Part shown: one piece after another, positions 48,176-50,523 of the stretch
How positions within the stretch are numbered: position 1 is the first letter of the stretch
Layout of the letters: the number at the start of each line of letters is the position of its first letter
Origin: Prochlorococcus sp. AG-363-N20
Lineage (GTDB): Bacteria > Cyanobacteriota > Cyanobacteriia > PCC-6307 > Cyanobiaceae
Assembly: GCA_003280105.1 (NCBI GenBank)
Contig: QCFX01000004.1
Coordinates: 1 to 64,000, forward strand
DNA length: 64,000 nt
Direction: 5' to 3'
Made by a program: the position numbers and the translations under genes
Notes under the pieces: model-generated
Database searches by the model: none
What the model was told of the DNA's origin: nothing
What the model saw: only the letters and a program-made list of their open reading frames with translations

Positions 48176-48619
48176 TTAATCTATGGCATCTATTATACCT
48201 TCGGTAATGTAACGTGCCATTTGCATGATATTTTGATCGATTGTTCTTTGCGCCGTACTCCATTTCTTGGATATCTTCTTGGATAATTTATTGTTTTTTG
48301 CATATTTAATCATAGTATTTGCTAGATGAGGTGGAAGCTCTGCTTTGTTTTCTTGAGCCAGCAGTTCCCATTTTTCTCTGTCTATAAGACCAATTGATTG
48401 GATGTCTTCGGTGCCTGCATACTTATACAGTTCCAGAATCCCAACATATAGGAAAATCTGACCTAACTGATGCAATGGGCTTTCAGTTGTCTCTGAGACG
48501 GCATATTCTTTGAGCATATTGCATAGCTCGGAATTCTTCCCTTCCTCTCCTTCCTTTGCTGCATTTAGAACTCTGTAGAATCTGCTGAACTCAACTGGTT
48601 TTGACACAACACCCTTCAC
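48176..48619 (-). CDS. hypothetical helical protein, unknown
   Basis: A 147-aa protein predicted mainly helical (FSRFYRVLNAAKEGEEGKNSELCNMLKEY; LHQLGQIFLYVGILELYKYAG; KKWSTAQRTIDQNIMQMARYITEGIIDAID). There is no motif I recognise. It lies in the island between the Cys-rich peptide and the recombinase-like gene, on the minus strand like the latter. Confidence 0.5.
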   Translation of the reverse strand: MKGVVSKPVEFSRFYRVLNAAKEGEEGKNSELCNMLKEYAVSETTESPLHQLGQIFLYVGILELYKYAGTEDIQSIGLIDREKWELLAQENKAELPPHLANTMIKYAKNNKLSKKISKKWSTAQRTIDQNIMQMARYITEGIIDAID

Positions 48620-48810: not shown

Positions 48811-49446
48811 TTAAGGCTCACTGTTCTCAACTATTACCCGTCTAATTGTAGAAAGGGCAAGGCTTGTCTGATCTCGGATAGTTCTATAAGAATACCCTTC
48901 TTTTCTTAACCTGATAACAAGCTTTTCTTTGGCTTCATTTATTCTTGGCCTACCTCCTAGATTTTTAAATTCGTTGCTCTTGTGCTTCTTGATCGGAAGA
49001 CTTTGGCTGGATTTTGAGAAAGGTTCTATTTTTAAAAGAGCCTTAAGAAATCCCATAACTGCTGGTGAAACTGTCCCAATATCTTTTGTATCAATCAGCC
49101 CATCTAGCGTTTTGATTTGTATTCTTTTTTTCAGTAGTTGATCAACCTGACTGATTATTGACACTTGACTATCTCCTAAGCAGTTCAAGCTAGAGACTAT
49201 TAATTGGTCCCCTTCAGCCATTGAAAGCAATGCTTTTGATAGTTCTGGCTTGGCTTGATCAATAAACTCATCGTGCACTTGCTCTAGAAAAATCTTTTTA
49301 CACCCTTCCTTTGTTAATCGATCAACTTCCGCTTGGGTAACCTTATTAGAGGGATGACGGACTAGGTAGCCAATAGATTTGTACTTGTGAAAAAAGGGCG
49401 ATCTATTCAAGAAGCCCTGAGTCCCATTTAGACCCACATTTCCCAT
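48811..49446 (-). CDS. serine recombinase (resolvase)-like protein lacking catalytic residues
   Basis: A 211-aa protein with a resolvase-like N-terminal domain (SIGYLVRHPSNKVTQAEVDRLTKEGCKKIFLEQ... LSKALLSMAEGDQLIVSSLNCLGDS... LLKKRIQIKTLDGLIDTKD) and a C-terminal Hin-type helix-turn-helix (GGRPRINEAKEKLVIRLRKEGYSYRTIRDQTSLALSTIRRVI). In active enzymes the motifs read Y-x-R-V-S and D-R-L-x-R-S; here they are YLVRH and NCLGDS, so the nucleophile Ser context and the key Arg residues are missing. It is likely a DNA-binding protein without recombinase activity. Confidence 0.75.
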   Translation of the reverse strand: MGNVGLNGTQGFLNRSPFFHKYKSIGYLVRHPSNKVTQAEVDRLTKEGCKKIFLEQVHDEFIDQAKPELSKALLSMAEGDQLIVSSLNCLGDSQVSIISQVDQLLKKRIQIKTLDGLIDTKDIGTVSPAVMGFLKALLKIEPFSKSSQSLPIKKHKSNEFKNLGGRPRINEAKEKLVIRLRKEGYSYRTIRDQTSLALSTIRRVIVENSEP

Positions 49447-49662
49447 GCTCTTAAAACTGTTATTAAAACCTAGTTTAGTTACTAGTGTTCTTATAACAAG
49501 TAACTAGAACAATTTTAATAGATTTAATTTGGTTTAGTAAGGAGATTAGTTCTCTTCTAGACGTAGTAAAAATCCCATGTTTTTATGACTTGTTGTAAAG
49601 CGCCAACCGTTTGCGGTTCGCCTGCGCCTTTGCTATAGTACAAAAATACTATACTCTCTCTT
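49447..49662. other. intergenic region with hairpin and promoter palindrome
   Basis: 216 bp between divergent genes. A GC-rich hairpin, AACCG-TTTG-CGGTT, within GCGCCAACCG...CGCCTGCGCC lies near 49598-49628, standing out from the AT-rich surroundings. It is followed by the TATAGTA/TACTATA palindrome. No gene seen. Confidence 0.4.
49634..49653. promoter_or_regulatory. inverted repeat over the promoter of the DUF1651 gene
   Basis: TATAGTA-CAAAAA-TACTATA is a perfect 7-bp inverted repeat ending 9 bp before the ATG at 49663. TATACT within it could serve as the -10 box. It is a candidate operator for autoregulation or for the adjacent recombinase-like protein. Confidence 0.45.
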
Positions 49663-49920
49663 ATGTCGCCTGGTGCTGATGTCTGGATTCAGGATCCACA
49701 AGAAAAATGGTCTCTTAGGTTTCATGAAGACCCAAAATCTTGGAGCGCATTTCCATTTGTTTTTGTAGACCGTGGAAGAGCTATGCGTGACGGTTCGCCA
49801 GCACTTTTGAAAAGCAGGAGTTATTTGCCTAAGTGCGATGCAATAGAAATTTGGACAACATTAATAGAAAAAGGTTGGAAAAAAGTTTCTCCTCAATGGA
49901 ACTTTGAAATAGAGCCTTAG
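49663..49920 (+). CDS. DUF1651 family protein
   Basis: An 85-aa protein with the DUF1651 pattern: WIQDPQEKWSLRFHEDPKSWSAFPFVFVDRGRAMRDGSPALLKSRSYLPKCDAIEIWTTLIEKGWKKVSPQW. The family is small, found mainly in marine picocyanobacteria, often in variable regions, and has no known function. The gene sits directly behind a palindromic promoter. Confidence 0.8.
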   Translation: MSPGADVWIQDPQEKWSLRFHEDPKSWSAFPFVFVDRGRAMRDGSPALLKSRSYLPKCDAIEIWTTLIEKGWKKVSPQWNFEIEP

Positions 49921-49977: not shown

Positions 49978-50523
49978 TTAGGCCAATCGAAAGATCTTTT
50001 TGATATTCAATAGAAATACTCCAGTATGTTCGTAAATATGTTTTCTTTCCCTTTTGATGTGAAGGTTATAAGGATTCGTAAAAATAGCAATTAAGATTCT
50101 TGCAAATCTTACGAAATTTGGTTTCACTGCTTTCGATACCGTTAATAGATCATTGAAATCATTGGCAGAAGCATCTTGCAATTCGGCAATTTTTGAAGTA
50201 TCCAAAAGATCTTGACTGATAAGAATAGTTAGGGTTTTATTTCTTTCACTAATTTTGATTGATGCCAGTAATAGCTTAAATGCTTTGAGTGAGGATACAT
50301 CTCCCTTGATGATCTCTGTTAGCACACTTTGATACAAGGTTTCCCACTTATACGGCTCTTCCTTGAAAAGGTAAATTTCCCTTTGCCATTTATCTGCTTC
50401 GTTTGCCTTTGCTAGCCTGTTCTCTTCGTGAATCTCATTTTGTTCAGATTTCCAATAATTATATAAAGGAGAACTTTGTTGAATATTCTCCCTCAATTTT
50501 TTGTTGTTAGGTGATTTTTTCAT
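49978..50523 (-). CDS. hypothetical protein, unknown
   Basis: A 181-aa charged, largely helical protein (NKKLRENIQQSSPLYNYWKSEQNEIHEENRLAKANEADKWQREIYLF ... LLASIKISERNKTLTILISQDLLDTSKIAELQD). No domain recognised. AT-rich and located in the island; its reading may be an island-specific orphan. No clear SD. Confidence 0.45.
   Translation of the reverse strand: MKKSPNNKKLRENIQQSSPLYNYWKSEQNEIHEENRLAKANEADKWQREIYLFKEEPYKWETLYQSVLTEIIKGDVSSLKAFKLLLASIKISERNKTLTILISQDLLDTSKIAELQDASANDFNDLLTVSKAVKPNFVRFARILIAIFTNPYNLHIKRERKHIYEHTGVFLLNIKKIFRLA

Follow-up and report, generated by a model that had tools for sequence, protein, structure and literature searches.

Introduction

The closest described systems are the Tn3 and gamma-delta resolvases (TnpR) and the DNA invertases Hin and Gin. 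Tn3 resolvase is described as a repressor that regulates itself (Chou et al. 1979, as cited in PMC7157771), and subunits carrying the S10A substitution support recombination when they occupy Tn3 res sites II and III (PMC9943657). The hix recombination sites of Hin and Gin are 26 bp long (PMC4513852).

The locus described here lies in a 64,000-nucleotide stretch of DNA (hereafter, the window) on contig C4 of a picocyanobacterial genome (1.46 Mb, 79% complete). It resembles the Tn3/gamma-delta resolvases in (i) the predicted fold, (ii) the domain order, (iii) the half-sites upstream of its own gene, and (iv) a divergent gene across the site region. It differs from them in that the window protein has neither the catalytic serine nor the catalytic arginines, there is no transposase, and the window holds a single clear dyad. 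With Hin and Gin the locus shares sequence kinship and a 26-bp dyad of 12+2+12 bp; unlike these invertases, the window protein has no active site, and a second inverted site was not found in the window. The best structural match of the predicted protein is Sin resolvase at its regulatory site II (PDB 2r0q), the proposed likeness being that of a serine recombinase dimer at an uncut site. Unlike the window protein, Sin retains catalytic competence, and it acts in concert with site I. A more distant parallel is provided by TldR, a mobile-element enzyme repurposed as a DNA-binding regulator; TldR derives from TnpB nucleases, is RNA-guided, and is unrelated to the window protein in both sequence family and mechanism. 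Our literature search, which was thin on subscription papers, returned neither an inactive serine recombinase acting as a regulator nor a report of the picocyanobacterial case described below.

Results

The recombinase gene and its neighbours

The features of the locus are listed in Table 1. The recombinase reading frame scores 26.3 bits against Pfam Resolvase (cut-off 23.3) and 18.6 bits, under the cut-off, against HTH_7; PHROGs assigns it to the DNA invertases (2e-12). Its best-matching named relatives are from Prochlorococcus single-cell genomes. On one flank lies what we take, from the sequence, to be purM, followed by a conserved gene; the other flank presumably carries tRNA-Cys, a conserved LpxB-like gene and an RNase-D-like gene. 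The same-strand gene downstream of the recombinase has no match in Pfam, NCBIfam or PHROG. The genes between purM and tRNA-Cys (48176–48619, the recombinase gene and 49978–50523) differ in orientation between relatives (L035, L036, L037, L041, L044 and L052), and these changes are possibly old inversions made by active recombinase copies.

Table 1. Coordinates of features at the recombinase locus (window positions)
Feature	Position	Strand	Remarks
Same-strand gene downstream of recombinase	48176..48619	-	Co-located in some relatives: L035, L036, L041
Small serine recombinase (resolvase/invertase type), predicted to be catalytically dead	48811..49446	-	211 aa, ATG start
C-terminal resolvase-type HTH, residues 163-207	48826..48960	-	Strongly conserved; 70% mean identity to active copies
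Former catalytic domain, residues 25-125	49072..49374	-	Predicted fold kept, sequence relaxed; 35% mean identity to active copies
NCLGDS replacing DRLGRS, residues 88-93 (D67N, R68C, R71D)	49168..49185	-	From alignment
YLVRH replacing YARVS, residues 27-31 (R8V, nucleophile S10H)	49354..49368	-	From ungapped alignment
26-bp dyad TGTTCTTATAAC-AA-GTAACTAGAACA, 12+2+12 bp, proposed operator	49486..49511	.	Both arms match the active-copy half-site
TATAGTA-N6-TACTATA palindrome	49634..49653	.	Just upstream of DUF1651 gene; one mismatch to RGTACNNNDGTWCB
Divergent DUF1651 gene	49663..49920	+	Pfam DUF1651, 95 bits; recurrent neighbour of recombinase family

Loss of the active site

Small serine recombinases require the nucleophile Ser10 together with Arg8, Arg45, Asp67, Arg68 and Arg71 (gamma-delta positions). 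MAFFT alignments of the window protein with approximately 25 intact relatives are ungapped at the catalytic motifs, and reveal that every one of these residues has been replaced: R8V, S10H, R45K (the arginine of ERPQL), D67N, R68C and R71D, with arginine at none of positions 8, 45, 68 and 71. The protein had initially been annotated as resolvase-like but without catalytic residues, and the alignments with intact relatives agree. The same annotation proposed that an active-site serine (for example, that of HPSNK) accompanied by two arginines would point to an active enzyme. In the alignment, the serine of HPSNK falls two residues downstream of the nucleophile position, at a position that varies among intact relatives, and the arginines are absent.

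Predicted fold and distribution of constraint

An AlphaFold2 model of the window protein (37 sequences; mean pLDDT 76.5) places the strands and helices in resolvase order; helix E is long, and the HTH is predicted with confidence (block pLDDT of 85–95 across residues 171–210). The top Foldseek matches of the model are resolvases, namely those of Sin, Tn3 and gamma-delta (E-values of roughly 1e-10 to 1e-8), while a family profile run against PDB sequences finds Gin, Tn3 and gamma-delta, with Gin chains the best. The small serine recombinase architecture of N-domain, helix E and C-terminal HTH is accordingly predicted in full by the model, as the initial annotation had proposed for the fold order. 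That annotation also described the HTH as well kept: its sequence, SYRTIRDQTSLALSTIRRVI, is retained in the window protein, and its mean identity to active copies is far above that of the N-domain (Table 1).

Constraint is likewise concentrated on the HTH. The best relative of the window protein in the collections has 45% identity over the matched part, too distant for dN/dS, and constraint on the window protein itself was judged by branch lengths. Its own terminal branch on a fixed tree measures 0.88 for the N-domain and 0.16 for the HTH. Summed over copies on the fixed tree, terminal branch lengths (N-domain/HTH) are 1.87/1.35 for active copies and 13.1/4.5 for dead low-light copies. Comparison of dN/dS across orthologues was run on the clade of high-light Prochlorococcus sequences described below, giving 0.226 for the N-domain, 0.027 for the HTH, and 0.156 overall; values for active low-light copies are 0.105 and 0.035, respectively (NG86 pairwise estimates in both cases, from pairs that are not independent). 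Together with the branch lengths of the window protein, these values are in keeping with the original suggestion that selection may act on DNA binding. The marks of a pseudogene, namely absence of purifying selection and interrupted frames, are not those of the high-light clade.

Half-sites and the upstream dyad

Active copies carry repeated 12-bp half-sites upstream of the gene, with the consensus TGTTCCANNAA[GC] (the half-site is also written TGTTCYNNNWAS). Dead copies keep these half-sites, often in the form TGTTCT. A position weight matrix (PWM) derived solely from active copies matches 23 times upstream of 16 dead copies, whereas 300 dinucleotide-shuffled sets average 2.9 matches (sd 1.7) and never exceed 8; two of the 16 (L043 and L050) have no PWM match upstream. 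The density of TGTTCY is 5.4 per kb upstream of dead copies versus 1.2 elsewhere. When dead-copy sites are picked by TGTTCY alone, positions 10–12 turn out to be informative too, as they are in active copies. A LexA half-site was considered as the source of TGTTCY and rejected: the information lies 3' of TGTTCY (at positions 10–12), with little at the LexA left-arm positions. A perfect LexA box stands upstream of the recombinase at 4 of 48 loci.

Taken alone, the upstream region in the window yields one PWM match at threshold (P about 0.15, not significant), and so it is the dyad, along with the full set of copies, that carries the case for this locus. The dyad reads TGTTCTAGTTAC-TT-GTTATAAGAACA on the minus strand, is of hix-like length, and lies 40 bp before the recombinase start codon. 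The full dyad consensus, allowing up to two mismatches, occurs at one place in the 1.46 Mb (reversed-pattern control, 0), and the only instance of TGTTCY-N12-18-RGAACA in the window is this same dyad (0.19 expected). Once the inner positions are dropped, the loose dyad TGTTCY-N12-18-RGAACA is found seven times in the genome versus six for the reversed control. We therefore set aside a genome-wide regulon: with one strict dyad in the genome and loose dyads at control level, a regulon beyond the gene's own locus is not evident. A sigma-70 scan detected no promoter-like sequence near the dyad.

Similar dyads lie upstream of the recombinase gene in L035, L076, L087 and L139. Judged by sequence, the window dyad is a predicted pair of half-sites near the gene, as in small serine recombinases generally, and predicted sites are conserved in the gene's own promoter region, as in a TnpR-like autoregulator. 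Two identical 29-bp dyads, 200 bp apart (L035 6918 and 7118), sit upstream of a dead copy within a local duplication. Elsewhere, a 30-bp dyad of like kind (L056 5107; the same genome place as L045 9606) lies approximately 3 kb from an intact recombinase, and is a possible second recombination site.

The TATAGTA palindrome and the DUF1651 gene

The initial annotation drew attention to a palindrome, TATAGTA-N6-TACTATA, about 190 bp from the recombinase start codon. The palindrome is indeed present, and is unique in the genome when no mismatch is allowed. Its pairing with the recombinase does not hold up: the palindrome is absent from active low-light relatives, adjoins the DUF1651 gene, and resembles the cyanobacterial LexA box (consensus RGTACNNNDGTWCB; PMC3091678). 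Its core, TTTGTACTA, was also tried as a recombinase site and dropped: active low-light copies lack it, although it recurs close to the intact paralogue and within the high-light upstream block. The likeness to a LexA box and the position before DUF1651 would explain the palindrome without the recombinase; its probable role is that of a LexA-like operator for the DUF1651 gene, not of a recombinase site. DUF1651 is present at 9 of 42 relatives' loci, and lies upstream and divergent in all nine, with no other arrangement found. A perfect LexA box (AGTAC-N4-GTACT type, 14 bp) precedes 11 of 20 DUF1651 genes sampled elsewhere (loci L166–L185), and DUF1651 may be an SOS-regulated family in picocyanobacteria. 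As a candidate operator for the recombinase, the dyad is, by sequence, much better than the palindrome.

Intact relatives and probable repeated loss

Relatives were found in 57 of 197 and in 176 of 400 sampled genomes; GTDB r220 gave 208 matching stretches, from which 79 loci, nearly all Prochlorococcus, were kept. An intact catalytic site is seen in about 25 distinct relatives, among them those at L010 and L045 and a second copy in the host genome (L001); the remainder have lost catalytic residues in differing combinations. Branches in the tree are short for active copies and long for dead ones. Because dead copies appear as a supported group of ten that includes the window protein (96/96), as the dead high-light clade plus its sister L087 (100/100), and as single copies amid active ones (L034, L057 and L083), catalysis has probably been lost at least four times in the family, the placement of long branches being unsure. 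The purM–tRNA-Cys locus is common to a number of low-light copies, both intact (L045) and dead, in varying orientation relative to purM; this common location suggests that low-light copies decayed in place. A viral origin was considered and rejected: the 2.9 million contigs of IMG/VR gave a single match, confined to the end of the HTH.

The intact second copy in the host genome (L001 1113–1697; G000:C31) is near-identical to a copy in genome G056 (L023) and has a different recognition helix; it looks to have been recently exchanged. Two copies of a Prochlorococcus-type recombinase occur in L084, a record titled Euryarchaeota archaeon TMED129 that is probably a binning error.

The high-light orthologue

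In high-light Prochlorococcus the orthologue was found in all 60 genomes that are at least 95% complete, usually as the sole copy. Among its carriers is MIT 9314 (L133), a strain in culture. The matched stretch is stop-free in 58 of these, and contains one stop in the other two. R45K and R71K are present in 46 of 46 distinct sequences; at position 10, 42 of these have Thr, three have Ser and one has Ile. In this clade, then, most but not all sequences have lost the nucleophile, and all have lost two catalytic arginines. At every locus of sufficient length, the gene is flanked by lipA and a 70-aa gene. This conserved neighbour, of unknown family (L133 8569–8781, and other high-light loci), begins directly after the pseudo-recombinase stop, and given this junction and the conserved adjacency, the two are probably co-transcribed. 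The upstream region consists of blocks that are 93–99% conserved on either side of a 63% stretch. A high-light promoter motif, TTTTGTACTAAAAAGTG, was tried and discarded: in four genomes it matches with 0–1 mismatch at the orthologue's own gene only, and other matches carry two mismatches and are at about control level.

Discussion

The reading that we favour, with a probability of about 0.6, is that a recombinase has become a site-specific DNA-binding protein that represses its own gene through the upstream dyad without cutting DNA. The ancestor would have been an active small serine recombinase working on an array of 12-bp half-sites just upstream of its gene, bound in the way that Tn3-type resolvases bind res. 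Loss of the active-site residues in the window lineage left the predicted fold, the presumed dimerisation helix and the HTH in place. The present protein would most likely bind the 26-bp dyad as a dimer; bound there, it would act as a repressor of its own gene and might also influence the divergent DUF1651 gene. In this reading the recombinase has been reduced to a DNA-binding role that Tn3 resolvase, being self-repressing, already has; the window protein is probably an autoregulator, and any further targets are a matter of inference.

Several alternatives were weighed against this reading. That the window protein is still an active recombinase, using another nucleophile such as the HPSNK serine, is barely credible: a serine does lie two residues beyond the expected position, but that position is variable among intact relatives, and S10, R8, R45, D67, R68 and R71 are all substituted. 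Slow decay, in which selection was relaxed after recombinase loss and the gene has no present role, would fit the long branches of the low-light dead copies and the fragments seen in some relatives (for example, L038 4621–5004 and a split copy in L058). We nevertheless consider a pseudogene unlikely: frames are open across many genera, half-sites are retained upstream of dead copies, the HTH branch of the window protein is approximately five times shorter than its N-domain branch, and every near-complete high-light genome retains the orthologue with a strongly constrained HTH.

Two alternatives remain. The protein could act in trans on the sites of an active relative, as a competitor or architectural subunit that blocks or shapes recombination, much like the non-catalytic dimers at Tn3 res II and III. 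The host genome does encode an intact paralogue (L001), and the support given to Tn3 recombination by S10A subunits provides a precedent. However, the recognition helix of the paralogue differs (LAVETIRKII vs LALSTIRRVI), making shared sites doubtful, and most high-light genomes have the dead copy only; we regard this role as no more probable than decay. Slightly less probable again is a nucleoid-type or structural protein that occupies numerous weak sites and is no specific regulator. Loose dyads at control level genome-wide would be compatible with it, but a promoter-proximal, strict-consensus dyad that occurs once in 1.46 Mb speaks for specific binding, as do predicted sites upstream of the protein's own gene across lineages. 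Between a transcription factor and a nucleoid protein, both raised in the initial annotation, the promoter-proximal dyad favours specific binding.

Beyond the window, it is possible, albeit tentative, that serine recombinases turned several times independently into site-specific transcription regulators in marine picocyanobacteria, one of them core to all high-light Prochlorococcus and with targets beyond its own gene. The family, with its DNA sites, forms a natural series that runs from active through partly disabled to fully dead copies. High-light Prochlorococcus have among the most streamlined genomes of free-living organisms, with very few transcription factors. These genomes nonetheless retain an active-site-disabled recombinase, in every near-complete one searched; if it is a regulator, this small set of transcription factors would gain a member of unusual origin.
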